Source of the DNA: Prochlorococcus sp. AG-363-M21
Lineage (GTDB): Bacteria; Cyanobacteriota; Cyanobacteriia; PCC-6307; Cyanobiaceae
Reading direction: 5' to 3'
Length of the DNA stretch: 55,350 bases
Assembly: GCA_003278305.1 (NCBI GenBank)
Contig: QCFU01000009.1
Span: 1 to 55,350 of the forward strand
In this document: positions 28,544 through 34,435 of the stretch, one piece after another
How positions within the stretch are numbered: position 1 is the first letter of the stretch
Layout of the letters: every line of letters starts with the position of its first letter
Notes under the pieces: generated by a model
The model's database searches: none
Told to the model about the DNA's origin: nothing
The model's input: only the letters and a program-made list of their open reading frames with translations
Made by a program: the position numbers and the translations under genes

Positions 28544-28807
28544 ATGTCAGATCCATTAATATATGATTCAGATAATTATGTGATCATAGAACCAGGCAAA
28601 AAAGAGCAATTATTAAATGAAAAAGAAACTCTTTTATGGCTAGAAAATTGGCTCATTCAATTTGAAGAGTTACCATCCGATCTAAAAGCTCAAAACTCTG
28701 TTAAAGATGCTGCACAACGTTTATTAGATACTGCTTGCGCTCTCCAGATAAAGCCAGGTTTGACAATAGAATGGTTTGCTATTCGTCTGGAAAATTCTGA
28801 TTCTTAA
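28544..28807 (+). CDS. CRR7-like (DUF3571) NDH-1 assembly protein
   Basis: An 87-residue soluble protein. The pattern YVIIEPGKKEQLLNEKETLLW, LPSDLKAQNSV, RLLDTACAL, KPGLTIEWFAIRLEN resembles the cyanobacterial/plastid CRR7 family, implicated in NDH complex assembly. The assignment is from memory of the family, not a search. The last 29 bases overlap the 3' end of the convergent aroK. Confidence 0.65.
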   Translation: MSDPLIYDSDNYVIIEPGKKEQLLNEKETLLWLENWLIQFEELPSDLKAQNSVKDAAQRLLDTACALQIKPGLTIEWFAIRLENSDS

Positions 28808-29358
28808 TTAGTATTGTTAATTGATTTAATATTAAAAGAGAGACTTCTTCAGGAGATTCATCTTCAACTTTAATATGGAGATCTGATTTGGAATACATAG
28901 ACTCTCTCTGTTTCAACAAATCATCAAGAGCTATTGTTGGATTCTTTGTTTCTAATAAAGGTCTCTTACTTGTGTCTAATTGCAATCGTTTTAATAAGCG
29001 ATTTCTTCCTGGATCTAGCCAAATTGATAGTCCTTGATGCAAAATTCCCCAATTTATTGAAGAAGTAACTAAACCACCACCAGTCGCCACAACAAAAGAA
29101 TGTCTTTGACCAATTTCTTTAAGCACTTCTGATTCAAATGATCTAAAAATTGACTCTCCCTCAGATTGAAAGATTTCAGAAATAGTTCTTTGAGTTGCTT
29201 TTTCTATCTGTTGATCAATGTCTATAAATCGATAACCTAATTCTTTAGCCAAATAAGGGGGCTGTTTGAGTTTTGCCTGAACCCATCATACCAACAAGGT
29301 AAAGATTAATACCTTTGAGGTTTTGACTTAAAGCAGAAAATCTAGAAGGATAATTCAT
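28779..29358 (-). pseudogene. aroK: Shikimate kinase aroK, frameshifted (single-base expansion)
   Basis: Shikimate kinase of the chorismate pathway. The minus strand opens with an ATG at 29358 and reads through the intact P-loop LVGMMGSGKT, then hits TAA at 29245-29247. The rest of the kinase continues in the +1 frame from LAKELGYRFIDIDQQIEK, with the expected DID, the FRSFESEV arginine, GGGLV and LLETKNP. Removing one C from the C5 run (29257-29261) restores one frame reading TAPYLAKELG. Because this enzyme is normally essential, a sequence error or slippage is as likely as true loss. It overlaps the CRR7-like gene at its 3' end. Confidence 0.85.
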
Positions 29359-29410
29359 ATAGGCATCAAACTATACAACTTAGTTAAAATAAGATCTAAT
29401 TAAGCCTCTC

Positions 29411-30319
29411 ATGATTGCAAACTCATCTCAAGGAAAACATGGTCAAGGGAGACAGTGCGTAATCACTCGTCGCGCTTGTTTTAGTGCAAGCCATCGTTAC
29501 TGGCTACCAGAATTAACTGCAGAGGAAAACAAAGCTTATTTCGGCAACTGCTCAATAGCTCCTGGACATGGGCACAACTATGAGTTAATTGTCTCAATGG
29601 AAGGCGAGCTAAATGAAGATGGTATGGTCCTAAATTTATCTGATGTAAAACATGCAATACACAATGAAGTCACTAATCAACTTGATTTTTCCTTTTTAAA
29701 TCAAACTTGGCCTGAGTTTGATACATCCAATCCACAAGGGTGTTTACCCACTACTGAAGCCCTAACAAAAATTATTTGGAAAAGACTAAAAGCGCATATT
29801 CCAATAAAATCAATAAGACTTTATGAACAAGAACGTCTTTGGGCAGATTATTCTGTAACTACTATGAATACTTACCTAACTATTAGAAAGCATTTTGCTG
29901 CTGCACATCGACTCGCAAGAGAAGAGTTATCCCAAAAAGACAATGAACAAATCTATGGAAAATGTGCACGAGTACATGGACATGGGCACAACTATTTGGT
30001 TGATATAACTGTCCAAGGATCTATCCATCCTAGAACTGGAATGATTTGTGACCTTAATGCATTGCAAGAATTAGTAGAAAGACTAATTATCGAGCCTTTT
30101 GATCATACTTTTTTGAATAAGGATATACCGTATTTTCAAACATGTGTTCCTACAGCAGAAAATATAGCAATTCATATTGCAGATACTCTAAATACACCTA
30201 TTAAAGAACTAGGTGCAGAATTATATAAGATTCGCCTTCAAGAAAGTCCTAATAATGCTGCAGAAGTATATCCACAAGAGAATTTATTAGATTCAGAAAA
30301 GACATTATTAAAAACATAA
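29411..30319 (+). CDS. Tandem 6-pyruvoyl-tetrahydropterin synthase/QueD-like protein
   Basis: A 302-residue protein with two consecutive PTPS/QueD domains. Domain 1 (about 15-155) has FSASHRYWL, CSIAPGHGHNY, LDFSFLN and PTTEAL. Domain 2 (about 158-285) has FAAAHRLA, CARVHGHGHNY, FDHTFLN and PTAENIA. Both retain the zinc histidines (one in ASHR/AAHR, two in GHGHN), the active-site cysteine and the Glu of the PT(T/A)E motif. Most family members are single-domain hexamers. The product could be a pterin or the queuosine precursor. The RibD-C gene starts 11 bases later. Confidence 0.86.
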   Translation: MIANSSQGKHGQGRQCVITRRACFSASHRYWLPELTAEENKAYFGNCSIAPGHGHNYELIVSMEGELNEDGMVLNLSDVKHAIHNEVTNQLDFSFLNQTWPEFDTSNPQGCLPTTEALTKIIWKRLKAHIPIKSIRLYEQERLWADYSVTTMNTYLTIRKHFAAAHRLAREELSQKDNEQIYGKCARVHGHGHNYLVDITVQGSIHPRTGMICDLNALQELVERLIIEPFDHTFLNKDIPYFQTCVPTAENIAIHIADTLNTPIKELGAELYKIRLQESPNNAAEVYPQENLLDSEKTLLKT

Positions 30320-30330
30320 TCTAAAAGAAC

Positions 30331-31029
30331 TTGTTAGATTCTCCATGGGTAAAGCTAGTTCTAGCAATGAGTATTGATGGGCGTATTGCATTTACTCAAA
30401 ATAAAAAGATTACCCTTGGAGGGGAAGGAGATAGAAAAGTTTTAGAAGAAGCATTGGCTTGGGCTGATGCAACCTTAATAGGTGGCCAAACCTTACGAAT
30501 TCATGAAAACATATGCCTAATTCATAATAAAAAATTAATTGAAAAACGTAAATCCAAGAAACTTCCAAGTCAACCAATAACTATAATTGCAAGTAAAAGA
30601 AAATTATTCAGGGAGGATCTATCATTTTTTAATCAACCACTTAATAGGTGGCTCATTACTGATAAATTAGCAGAGGGAGATAATGAAAAACTAAAAGGAT
30701 TTGATAAGAAAATACTAATTAAAAATAATTGGTCGGAAACTCTAAAAATACTAAAAAAATACGGAATTTTTAAAATAGCGCTTCTAGGAGGGGCTAAATT
30801 AGCTCAATCATTATTTATAGAGGACAACATTGATGAATTACAATTAACAATTACTCCAAAGATCTTAGGTGGTGAAAATTCATTGACTCCTTTTAAAAAG
30901 GATAATCTACCAATTAACTTACACCAAAATAATGCTTGGATTCTCAAAAATGTTAACCACTTAGGGGGCAATGAATTAATGGTCAACTATATTCGCAATA
31001 GAGAAGTTAAGCTCAATAATATTATATAG
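30331..31029 (+). CDS. RibD C-terminal domain-like reductase, stand-alone
   Basis: A 232-residue DHFR-fold reductase related to the C-terminal half of RibD. It has VKLVLAMSIDGRIAF, the NADPH region ADATLIGGQTLRI and a C-terminal GGAKLAQSLF...ITPKILGG pattern. The deaminase half of RibD is missing and the usual substrate motif after GRIA is poorly kept, so the riboflavin reaction is uncertain. The start is TTG at 30331. It directly follows the tandem PTPS gene, hinting at pterin reduction. The next gene starts 4 bases after its stop. Confidence 0.78.
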   Translation: MLDSPWVKLVLAMSIDGRIAFTQNKKITLGGEGDRKVLEEALAWADATLIGGQTLRIHENICLIHNKKLIEKRKSKKLPSQPITIIASKRKLFREDLSFFNQPLNRWLITDKLAEGDNEKLKGFDKKILIKNNWSETLKILKKYGIFKIALLGGAKLAQSLFIEDNIDELQLTITPKILGGENSLTPFKKDNLPINLHQNNAWILKNVNHLGGNELMVNYIRNREVKLNNII

Positions 31030-31033
31030 GAAA

Positions 31034-32236
31034 ATGAAAAGTAAGATAAATAAGAATGATTCAAAAGAATTATTTATAACAAAATGGCATACATCGCTGC
31101 AAGAGATACCAGAGGAAGATTGGGATCATCTTTTAGGAGAGCAAGATATTCCCTTTTATAAATGGAACTGGTTAAATGAACTTGAAAAATCTAAAAGTGT
31201 TTGCAATGAAACTGGCTGGCAGCCATTGCATATGAGCATATGGAAAAATAAAAAAATAGTAGGCTTAGCGCCTTTATATCTTAAAAATCATAGCTATGGT
31301 GAATTTATTTTTGACAATCTTTTTTTACAGTTATCACAAGAATTAGAACTCAGATATTACCCAAAAATTATAGGGATGAGTCCCTTTAGTCCAATAGAGG
31401 GATATAAGTTTTTTATATCTCAAAAAGAGAATCAGGATGAAATTACTTTATTAATAATGAAAAATATAGATCAATTTGCTATCAAGAATAATATTCTTAG
31501 TTGTAACTTTCTTTACGTTGACCCAAATTGGAGTAAAGTTGCGAAAAAATTTAATTACCACTCCTGGATAAATCAACAAAGCCTTTGGCAGCCCTCTGGT
31601 GAAAAAAATTTCTCAGACTATCTAACGAAATTTAACGCAAATCAAAGAAGAAATATAAAAAGAGAGCAAAGATCAATAAGGAACTCTGGAGTAAACATAT
31701 CTACTATTGAAGGAGAGCAAATTAACCAAGAAATTATGGCATCCATGTATCAATTTTACAAACTACATTGCTCAAGGTGGGGTATTTGGGGAAGCAAGTA
31801 CCTTTCCAGAAGCTTCTTTAAGGGACTTGCAAATTCCAACCAAAGAGACAGAATTGTTTTATTTAGTGCACATAGAGGGAATCCATACGATCCTTTAGCA
31901 ATGTCATTATGCATTAGAAATAAAGAAGCTTTATGGGGAAGATATTGGGGTTTCAAGGAAAAGATTAATTACTTGCACTTTGAAGTTTGCTATTATTCGC
32001 CTATAAAATGGGCTATAGAACAAGGAATTAAAAAATTTGATCCAGGCGCAGGTGGTAGTCATAAAAAAAGACGGGGATTCAATGCTCAAGCTCGAATAAG
32101 TATGCACAAATGGTATGACAAAAGAATGGAATCTCTAATGAAGAATTGGTATCAGAAAGCAAATAGTTTTATGATTCAAGAGATAAATGCATCAAACAAT
32201 GAAGCTCCCCTAAAGGATTCTTTTAAGAAACTATAA
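31034..32236 (+). CDS. DUF482/GNAT-like protein (FemAB-related)
   Basis: A 400-residue protein matching the PF04339 family (called peptidoglycan biosynthesis/recognition in some databases, related to the GNAT fold of FemAB). Recognisable parts are SIWKNKKIVGLAPLYLK, NFLYVDPNW, FNANQRRNIKREQRSI, SLCIRNKEALWGRYWGFKE, HFEVCYYSPIKWAIEQGI and the terminal DPGAGGSHKKRRGF. Acyl or aminoacyl transfer is inferred. It follows the RibD-C gene by 4 bases. Confidence 0.78.
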   Translation: MKSKINKNDSKELFITKWHTSLQEIPEEDWDHLLGEQDIPFYKWNWLNELEKSKSVCNETGWQPLHMSIWKNKKIVGLAPLYLKNHSYGEFIFDNLFLQLSQELELRYYPKIIGMSPFSPIEGYKFFISQKENQDEITLLIMKNIDQFAIKNNILSCNFLYVDPNWSKVAKKFNYHSWINQQSLWQPSGEKNFSDYLTKFNANQRRNIKREQRSIRNSGVNISTIEGEQINQEIMASMYQFYKLHCSRWGIWGSKYLSRSFFKGLANSNQRDRIVLFSAHRGNPYDPLAMSLCIRNKEALWGRYWGFKEKINYLHFEVCYYSPIKWAIEQGIKKFDPGAGGSHKKRRGFNAQARISMHKWYDKRMESLMKNWYQKANSFMIQEINASNNEAPLKDSFKKL

Positions 32237-32265
32237 TTGATTTGCAAGAATTAAAACTATTTTTT

Positions 32266-32466
32266 ATGGTTAAAGAAGAAGAAAGTAATAAGAAAAAGGA
32301 TGACATTCTCTCCTATGAGTATGATGAAAAACAATCATTACTTAAAGTCTTTGGAGTAGAGTTAACTGCTCCTAAAAAATTAAAGAATCCTAGAATTATT
32401 TATATATCTTTTATTCTTGTAAATTTGATTCTTCTTCTTGTTCTAAAAAATCTCTTATCAAATTAA
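32266..32466 (+). CDS. Small hypothetical protein with C-terminal membrane helix
   Basis: About 66 residues. A charged N-terminus (KEEESNKKKDD), a middle segment (YEYDEKQSLLKVFGVELTAP) and one hydrophobic C-terminal helix (RIIYISFILVNLILLLVLK). The ATG at 32266 is preferred to a TTG at 32242. It lies 29 bases after the DUF482 gene on the same strand. I recognise no family. Confidence 0.5.
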   Translation: MVKEEESNKKKDDILSYEYDEKQSLLKVFGVELTAPKKLKNPRIIYISFILVNLILLLVLKNLLSN

Positions 32467-32523
32467 TCTATAATTAAATTAATAATTTTCCTTAATTACA
32501 ATCCAACTTACTCATGTAACAGA

Positions 32524-32916
32524 ATGGAAGACACTAAAGCAATCTTGAAGAATATTCAGGTTATTGATGAAAAGCTTTCCGAACGATTTATTTTCCTTGA
32601 TCCAAGTGGCTATTTTCTAATTAAATTACAGAAGGAGTCTCAAGAGATAATTCTTGAGCATTACTCTAATGAAATTGATGAAAATGGTATCGCAATAGAT
32701 CCCGACTCTGGAAAACCAATCGAATGCTCTTCAAACGAAAAACGATCCCCTAACAAAATTTTCATTGGTAAAAGCGCAAAAGAAATCGGAATTAAGATTA
32801 GCGAAGGCAATGGGCCTCATCCAATTAGCCGGCTAGATCACGCTTTATACATAGGCAGAGAACTCCAGAAAGCAGAATTCTCATTAGCTCACAACCTTAC
32901 TTATATCCAAGATTAA
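32524..32916 (+). CDS. DUF4346 family protein
   Basis: A 130-residue protein with the pattern LDPSGYFLIKLQKESQEIILEHY, DPDSGKPIECSS, SAKEIGIKISE and ISRLDHALYIGRELQKAEF. I recognise this as DUF4346, a cyanobacterial family sometimes linked to dihydropteroate-synthase-like proteins. No membrane segment or catalytic motif is visible. It precedes petL. Confidence 0.72.
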   Translation: MEDTKAILKNIQVIDEKLSERFIFLDPSGYFLIKLQKESQEIILEHYSNEIDENGIAIDPDSGKPIECSSNEKRSPNKIFIGKSAKEIGIKISEGNGPHPISRLDHALYIGRELQKAEFSLAHNLTYIQD

Positions 32917-32988
32917 ATCTAAATAAGCTCATCAATGTCACAAAAAAGTCGAATCTATCTGTTCTAATGGTTAGTGGATATATTTTTT

Positions 32989-33084
32989 ATGATGGGAATT
33001 ATTTTTTATTTGGCGATTTTTGGACTTGGACTTGGCACAGCATTTGGCCTAACCAAGGTGCTAAAGGCAATAAAACTCATTTAG
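32989..33084 (+). CDS. petL: Cytochrome b6f complex subunit PetL
   Basis: A 31-residue protein, too short for most gene finders, reading [20 protein letters not shown] and ending [10 protein letters not shown]. The single helix and the KxIKLI end match cyanobacterial PetL, a peripheral b6f subunit that stabilises the dimer. An in-frame GTG at 32974 would add five residues. A longer ORF in another frame (32967-33200) is a shadow. Its last 8 bases overlap the 3' end of the convergent rimO. Confidence 0.8.
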
Positions 33085-34435
33085 TTGAAACGAGCTCTGC
33101 CGTTAGATCATATAAGTCGGAATCAATAACTAAAGCCTGCACCATCATCCCAGGCGAAATATTTGATGTATTAGTAGAAGCCTTAGTCAACCTTACATAA
33201 CCATCAACTTCAGGAGCGAACCTTAAACATCTTCCTATGAATTCTCCAGTTTGATCATCTTTTTTTTCTATTAGAACACTAAAAATTTTTCCCACACAGC
33301 CTTGGTTCTTATTAGCTGAAATTGATTGTTGAATAGAGATAATTTTATCTTTTCGCGCTTGAGCTATTTCATAAGGGACTTGATTATCCATCATGGCTGC
33401 TTTAGTCCCTTCTTCTGGGGAGAAAGTAAAGACTCCAACATGATCAAACTCATGTGTTTTCACAAAAGAGCAGAGGTGCTCAAAATGATCTTCTGTTTCT
33501 CCAGGAAAACCAACTATAAAAGTTGTTCTCAGTACTGCATCAGGTAATTGTGCTTTGATATTAGTGATAAGAGATTCATTAATATTCGTTTGCCATGGAC
33601 GATTCATTGCTCGCAAGACCTCAGGGTGACTATGCTGCAAAGGCAAATCTAGATAAGGCAAAACATTAGGAACATCTCTATAAGCACTCAAAACCTCTGG
33701 GGTTAATCCTGTGGGGTAAGCATAATGAATTCGAATCCAAGGAATATTTACAGAGCCAAGGGCTCTTAAAAGCTCAGCAAGATATGGTTTGCCATACAAA
33801 TCAAGACCGTAATTAGTAGTAATCTGACTAATTAGAATCAACTCTTGAACACCGTCTTTGGCGAGTTGATGGGCTTCTGAGACTATTGATTCTAACGATC
33901 GGCTGCGCTGATCCCCTCTGAGTTTTGGAATAATGCAAAAAGCACATCTGTAATCACAACCCTCAGCAATCTTTAAATAAGCGATTGATTTACCTGTCAT
34001 TCTCAAACGAGGCAGAACTTCATCTCCAACAAAAACTGGCGATTTAGTTACCTTTTGAACTGTTTCACCTGACCTCACTCTGTTTAAGACTTCGACAATA
34101 TGTTGATAATCCCCAGTTCCAACAACAGCCTTTGCTTCAGGGATTAAATGCAGTAATTCTTCTTGAAAATGTTGTGCCAAACAACCTGCAATAATAATTT
34201 CCTTACCCTTTTCAGCAAGTCCCACTAGAACTCGAACAGACTCTTCTCTAGCATCTTCAATAAAACTACACGTGTTAACTACCACCAAATCAGCAGAGTC
34301 AGCATCATTTAGTAATGCATAACCAGCTTGATCCAATAACCCCATCATATGTTCAGTGTCTACTAAATTTTTTTCACAACCAAGATGAAGAAAAGCGACT
34401 GCAAAATTTGCTTGATTAATAGAAGTGGAAGTCAT
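33077..34435 (-). CDS. rimO: Ribosomal protein S12 methylthiotransferase
   Basis: Radical-SAM enzyme that adds a methylthio group to an aspartate of ribosomal protein S12. The N-terminal Fe-S cysteines are C20 (LGCEKNLVD), C56 (VNTCSFI) and C85 (IAGCLAQ). The radical-SAM triad is C160, C164 and C167 in [10 protein letters not shown]-terminal TRAM domain ends around [11 protein letters not shown]. RimO is distinguished from MiaB by the EKNLVD(T/S)E motif. Length 452 aa is normal. Confidence 0.94.

Follow-up and report, generated by a model that had tools for sequence, protein, structure and literature searches.

A stand-alone RibD_C reductase beside a tandem PTPS protein in Prochlorococcus: a candidate dihydrofolate reductase

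The stand-alone RibD_C protein encoded within the window, by which we mean the whole 55,350-nucleotide stretch of Prochlorococcus DNA that was analysed, is a candidate for the cell's dihydrofolate reductase (DHFR), a RibD-family analogue in the manner of Rv2671, and we put the probability of this reading at roughly 0.57. The enzyme would use NAD(P)H to reduce 7,8-dihydrofolate, and perhaps other 7,8-dihydropterins as well, to the tetrahydro form, which is the step taken by FolA elsewhere. The proposal builds on the observed gene order, the distribution relative to FolA, a truncated copy in a genome that has FolA, the residue pattern and the predicted fold, from which we infer the reaction, the cofactor and the operon. 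It draws its support from a published gap, the absence of FolA from the marine family, the alternation of the two genes, the stages seen in one family (f32), the pocket residues, the fold and trimethoprim tolerance; it is held at its present level by an activity that is predicted only, by the ten genomes with both genes and those with neither, and by a PTPS link in at least one distant genome. A conserved candidate gene, a clear pattern of replacement between it and FolA, and a truncated copy in a genome that has FolA make the question directly testable. If the reading is true, very abundant marine phototrophs rely on an enzyme from the riboflavin-reductase family for a step that DNA and protein synthesis cannot do without, and riboflavin labels on such genes would be wrong.

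Prochlorococcus marinus was described in 2007 as lacking a recognizable DHFR, the gene being unidentified, in a paper which also noted that Pfam01872 proteins confuse FolA annotation (PMC1971073, section 8). As of February 2026 the final folate step was still called unclear in most cyanobacteria (PMC12903740). Two further papers report poor trimethoprim susceptibility of cyanobacteria (PMC4531292, PMC4790302), with EC50 values from 11 to >200 mg/L in the latter. Among open-licence papers, covered in part by their top-ranked matches, we found no recognised assignment of DHFR to a cyanobacterial stand-alone RibD_C protein.

The locus and its conservation

Table 1. Genes at the locus, in positions of the window
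Feature	Position	Strand	Remark
Tandem PTPS protein, 302 aa	29411..30319	+	two PF01242 domains
Stand-alone RibD_C (DHFR-fold) reductase, 232 aa, TTG start	30331..31029	+	proposed dihydrofolate reductase analogue
FemAB-like protein (PF04339), next gene	31034..32236	+	Pfam
Small PterinBD-DUF4346 protein (PF14251)	32524..32916	+	Pfam

A preliminary description of the locus had pictured a fused double PTPS followed 11 bases on by a reductase that lacks a deaminase partner, and the open reading frames and Pfam matches (PF01242, PF01872) bear this out: 11 bases separate the PTPS stop from the reductase TTG, and Pfam places one RibD_C and zero deaminase domain in the second protein. No PTPS or RibD_C match beyond this pair was found in the genome of the window, a 1.16 Mb assembly that is 70% complete. 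The stand-alone reductase is seen in 35 of the 37 marine-family genomes, the window's own included, and the two without it are 62% (G023) and 53% (G034) complete. Conservation of the pair, which the same description had left to be checked, is evident: in all 34 other marine-family loci fetched, PTPS and reductase adjoin with order and strand unchanged, so the pairing is not due to chance, and they are found together in 79 of the best 80 loci among 570 named relatives of the tandem PTPS, the remaining locus stopping at a contig end. These 80 loci belong to Prochlorococcus and Synechococcus and to a single uncultured cyanobacterium; no fewer than 11 of them duplicate loci of the first set, judged by an exact match of the central stretch. 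The gap between the genes has a median of 6 bases over 33 marine-family loci (L069, whose start is unsure, was left out) and is an overlap in nine of them. Such short or overlapping gaps suggest that the two genes share one transcript in marine picocyanobacteria; the proposed scheme thus probably places the reductase in one operon with a tandem PTPS, domain 2 of which would offer a complete site of the 6-pyruvoyl-tetrahydropterin synthase kind.

The wider neighbourhood in the 34 marine-family loci, some of which end at a contig edge, comprises shikimate kinase (34 loci), FemAB (33), DUF4346 (32), CRR7 (32), GST (28) and RbfA (28). In the window the shikimate kinase gene (28779-29330, minus strand) is split, with the P-loop part (GMMGSGKT) in a different frame from the rest, which is either a true frameshift or a mistake in the draft assembly. 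Scans of positions 29200-33100 were uninformative, returning 10 promoter-like sites, fewer than the shuffle mean of 16.0, and 4 terminator-like sites against 1.8 in shuffles. A single scan of viral contigs, sensitive to close relatives only, gave no viral relatives.

The tandem PTPS protein matches PF01242 with an E-value of 3e-63 over the whole protein, its domains extending over residues 18-148 and 156-287 or thereabouts, and its profile has matches at E <1e-80 in 232 of the 242 genomes of the class. Both domains retain the zinc His, Cys, Asp and Glu positions. Domain 2 holds the complete residue set of three zinc His, Cys, an Asp-His pair (D231-H232) and Glu; domain 1 lacks the His of that pair and reads Asp-Phe (D92-F93) instead. 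We take this His to be catalytic by analogy with rat PTPS. The corresponding domain-1 position is Phe in 63 of 67 aligned cyanobacterial rows and His in none, and outside the marine family the Cys and Asp of domain 1 vary too in some rows. The preliminary claim that zinc and catalytic residues are intact in both domains consequently stands for the zinc ligands and fails for the catalytic His of domain 1. Although the tandem protein passes the QueD equivalog TIGR03367 (121.9 bits against a cut-off of 89.25), matches to solved structures favour the animal enzyme, domain 2 scoring E 8e-30 with 3i2b and E 3e-7 with the QueD structure 4ntm.

Distribution of the reductase and FolA across the class

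Across the class the reductase and FolA alternate, a pattern pointing to dihydrofolate. The 242 genomes were searched with the family profile (A3, 30 rows) and with PF00186, presence being called at E <1e-45 for the reductase and E <1e-30 for FolA, cut-offs that were set after seeing well-separated groups. The DHFR count covers the FolA route (PF00186), as distinct from FolM, pteridine reductases and FolP-fused DHFR2. PF00186 matches at E <=0.001 in 48 of the 242 genomes, of which 27 were counted as FolA while 21 with weak matches (E 9e-7 or weaker) were counted as lacking it; in the four of these 21 that were compared (G046, G060, G108 and G120), the weak match falls on a short RibD_C protein every time. 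None of the 37 marine-family genomes, that of the window included, has a FolA (PF00186) match.

The reductase alone is present in 181 of the 242 genomes, FolA alone in 17, both in 10 and neither in 34, 26 of which make up family f23. With f23 set aside the 216 remaining genomes divide as 181, 17, 10 and 8 (Fisher p 9e-13), and when the marine family is removed as well p is 1e-11; counted by genus it is 3e-10, rising to 7e-8 with the five mixed genera scored against the association and to 3e-6 with f23 scored against it too, all of these values ignoring phylogeny. The genomes with FolA alone are spread over 11 families, and the tandem PTPS is retained in all 17 (E at most 2e-100); five genomes, one of them just 85% complete, have the reductase without the tandem PTPS. 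Four of the eight non-f23 genomes with neither gene (G038, G040, G060 and G247) are 97-99% complete, so that another route must exist.

A tree was built from a chosen sample of 67 tandem-PTPS proteins, drawn from 13 of the 17 FolA-only genomes, 4 of the 10 with both genes, 1 of the 8 with neither, one f23 genome and, for the rest, reductase-only genomes; seven rows are from the marine family, and 31 of the 64 inner branches have values below 80. This weakly supported tree requires at least 8 changes in reductase presence and at least 11 in that of FolA, the six FolA genomes of family f15 fall into one group, and the best tree contains 8 reductase-lacking groups, 7 of them with FolA. A phylogenetic contrast on the tree yields just one case on starred branches and is not significant.

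The genomes of family f32 show stages of reductase replacement at one site. Two of them (G234 and G148) have an intact reductase upstream of FemAB-DUF4346 and FolA at a different place. A third (G129) has FolA and a 105-aa reductase fragment closed by a stop codon; the 210 bases from there to the FemAB frame could not encode what is missing from a protein of about 240 aa, so this is a truncated copy. In a fourth (G172) FolA is present and FemAB-DUF4346 have no reductase match beside them. The FolA of G129 is an unbroken frame of 166 aa that matches PF00186 at E 2e-45, and it scores below the curated cut-offs of the NCBIfam DHFR models (best E 1e-31). The six f15 genomes with FolA likewise keep FemAB-DUF4346 and have no reductase match, though the single reductase locus retrieved from f15 (L108) showed the gene with no neighbouring FemAB cluster. 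Family f23 has no strong FolA match in any of its 26 genomes, and 12 of the 13 tested carry only a divergent stand-alone RibD_C protein (PF01872) of another subfamily, of which L115:5244-6026 and L124:1738-2541 are examples; the five f23 proteins read keep Asn10, Asp34, Asp58 and Glu152, and this lineage may represent an independent solution to the DHFR gap.

The tandem PTPS and the reductase are both widespread in the class and outside the marine family are usually apart, PTPS being absent from all 16 reductase loci fetched there. A comparison by eye of the listed coordinates found two genomes outside the family with both genes within 10 kb. In G188 (family f24) the PTPS follows the reductase at a distance of about 2.5 kb. 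In G065 (family f11; L306 2268-6068) the tandem PTPS, a spacer of 510 bases, the reductase, FemAB and DUF4346 follow one another in a single orientation, matching the window, and in its family mate G046 the tandem PTPS and the reductase are far apart. The four-gene order is hence either old or has arisen more than once, and the G065 locus moved our odds slightly toward a PTPS-linked role. Neighbour clusters at the 16 outside loci recur in at most 6 of them; a FemAB-like frame, named by likeness rather than by Pfam, follows the reductase in four, and the other recurring clusters could include a folate gene.

Several cyanobacterial families have a FemAB-like gene next to the reductase and DUF4346, as seen in the window (Table 1), at L306:2775-3950 and at L121:3329-4510. 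DUF4346 itself may have to do with folate or pterins: G040 encodes a 505-aa protein (L123:2344-3861) that joins a domain resembling methanogen-type thymidylate synthase to a C-terminal PterinBD-DUF4346 and scores 148 bits on TIGR03283, under the cut-off of 174.55, and 25 of the 27 ThyA-family matches in the 242 genomes sit in frames of 498-576 aa. The idea that FolA simply tracks ThyA was discarded, a ThyA-family match being present in 27 of the 242 genomes and missing from 20 of the 27 FolA genomes.

Taken further, there is about an even chance that most cyanobacteria, Prochlorococcus included, finish folate with a Rib7/RibD-derived enzyme and that FolA has displaced this enzyme several times; the picocyanobacterial version, which would be operonic with the tandem PTPS, may act on an unconjugated dihydropterin as well as on dihydrofolate, thereby joining folate and pterin supply, and could underlie the tolerance of trimethoprim.

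Substrate pocket and competing roles

The reductase is a clear member of PF01872 (E 7e-27, 95.0 bits against a cut-off of 24.1), and PF00186 is found neither among its Pfam matches nor in the genome of the window. An NCBIfam RibD match spans the reductase part only, and scores fall below the equivalogs of RibD (TIGR00326, 60.2 bits against 156.35) and archaeal Rib7 (TIGR01508, 64.4 against 186.45). It also scores 47.1 bits, against a cut-off of 184, on NF010663, which we take to be the model covering Rv2671. When 30 rows of the family were aligned with 30 complete RibDs, five f23 proteins and Rib7, position 34 was Asp in 30/30 family rows, in 5/5 f23 proteins and in Rib7, and Ala or Ser in all 30 RibDs. 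By HMMER alignment D34 corresponds to D33 of Rib7, the residue changed in the 5xv0 and 5xv2 mutants (D33N, D33A). The RibDs are invariant (30/30 each) for Lys10, Asp58, Pro60 and Glu152, where the family rows have Val, Ile or Leu at position 10 (30/30), His or Tyr at 58 (27/30), Ser or Thr at 60 (21/30) and Leu at 152 (28/30). The window protein reads Val10, His58, Asn60 and Leu152 and so departs from the conserved RibD/Rib7 pattern of Lys or Asn10, Asp58, Pro60 and Glu152. D33 of Rib7 presumably reads the 2-amino group of the 2-amino-4-oxopyrimidine ring, a feature also of pterins, and positions 58-60 presumably hold the ribose phosphate in RibD and Rib7; if these roles are as assumed, the pocket suits a pterin without ribose phosphate. 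The proposed enzyme would accordingly work with a RibD/Rib7-family pocket that has kept the Asp of Rib7 and given up positions conserved in riboflavin-pathway reductases. Antifolates contact Asp27 of DHFR and Asp55 (the paper's numbering) of Rv2671 in a simulation study (PMC10530724), and we infer that these residues occupy the same column as Asp34.

The preliminary description had suggested that the pair could together make and reduce a pterin. Pterin reduction survives as the right chemistry; a single obligate pathway finds no support in the distribution, given that the genes are usually apart outside the marine family and that each can occur without the other. A looser coupling, in which the reductase acts not on folate but on what the adjacent PTPS makes (6-pyruvoyl-tetrahydropterin or a 7,8-dihydropterin), yielding a tetrahydropterin such as the core of a cyanobacterial pterin glycoside, is the main rival to the dihydrofolate reading, and we rate it as a tentative possibility. 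It would account for the tight and often overlapping adjacency in the marine family, for the repeat of the four-gene order in distant G065 and for the animal-like character of PTPS domain 2, and cyanobacteria do make pterin glycosides according to PMC13259868. Against it stand the 17 of 17 FolA-positive, reductase-negative genomes that keep the tandem PTPS, the five with the reductase and no tandem PTPS, and the 0 of 16 outside reductase loci that hold a PTPS; nor does it predict the alternation with FolA, unless FolA serves that pterin too.

On the queuosine side, QueC is strong in 34 of the 37 marine-family genomes, including that of the window, and 32 of the 37 have a separate single PTPS. 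The two single PTPS proteins read, in G001 and G012 (L221:243-731 and L223:309-794), have HGYS for HGHN, so that one zinc His looks lost, and they score 43.2 and 37.5 bits on the QueD model against the cut-off of 89.25; their assignment as QueD is doubtful. In a 60-genome sample, eight genomes from outside the marine family lack a strong QueC match and seven of these keep the tandem PTPS, whose role there is therefore not queuosine alone.

A riboflavin role fares worse. The preliminary description had suggested looking for a separate complete RibD, and one is found in relatives: a long RibD frame occurs in 30 of the 37 marine-family genomes, the seven without it (the window's among them) being at most 90% complete, and the RibD of the genus mate G001, which was read, has both deaminase and reductase parts. 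The marine-family PF01872 matches amount to this complete RibD plus the stand-alone reductase, with a few extras in G007, G024, G031 and G036. The stand-alone protein is thus not simply the cell's RibD, and an ordinary RibD role was set aside on this ground and on the changed conserved positions. That it is a second riboflavin-pathway reductase, of PyrR or Rib7 type, is very unlikely: PF01872 membership, the archaeal Rib7 proteins as closest solved relatives and the shared Asp34 would fit, but a complete RibD exists in relatives, the four residues found in 30/30 RibDs are gone and the alternation with FolA is left unexplained. A reductase of some other small molecule, the alternation arising incidentally from common ancestry or way of life, appears unlikely. 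The association tests ignore phylogeny, the tree support is weak and some nearly complete genomes have neither gene, all of which would suit such a role; the scatter of FolA-only genomes over 11 families and the truncated reductase beside its usual neighbours in the FolA genome G129 argue the other way.

Comparison with known enzymes

The predicted model of the reductase (pLDDT 88.8) is closest to Rib7 (Z 24.9), then to Rv2671 and RibD/RibG, and then to DHFRs, an order of likeness that alone fixes no substrate. Rv2671 of Mycobacterium tuberculosis is stated to be a DHFR in PMC12855090, citing Cheng and Sacchettini 2016. It is a stand-alone RibD_C protein like that of the window and has the same fold (4xrb, 4xt4 and 4xt6, Z 21.9-23.0, the upper value for 4xt4 with its dihydropteridine ring), the two differing in sequence to the extent of about 19% identity over the structural alignment; by their entry titles the Rv2671 structures carry dihydro- and tetrahydropteridine rings. 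M. tuberculosis also has dfrA, so that Rv2671 is not its only DHFR, whereas the cyanobacterial enzyme would be the sole one. Archaeal Rib7 (Methanosarcina mazei, 5xux) is the best match in both sequence and fold and has the Asp in common (D33 to D34), and its Asn10, Asp58, Pro60 and Glu152 are replaced in the window protein. The reductase domain of RibD shares PF01872, but the window protein comes without a deaminase and with altered substrate positions. FolA has the overall fold in common (Z 18.2 for 1cz3 and about 14-15 for the other DHFRs listed) without a PF00186 match linking the two. For the partner protein, 6-pyruvoyl-tetrahydropterin synthase (rat 1b66, human 3i2b) is the closest solved relative of domain 2, which has the full set of expected residues, the differences being that the window protein is a tandem and that its domain 1 lacks the His.
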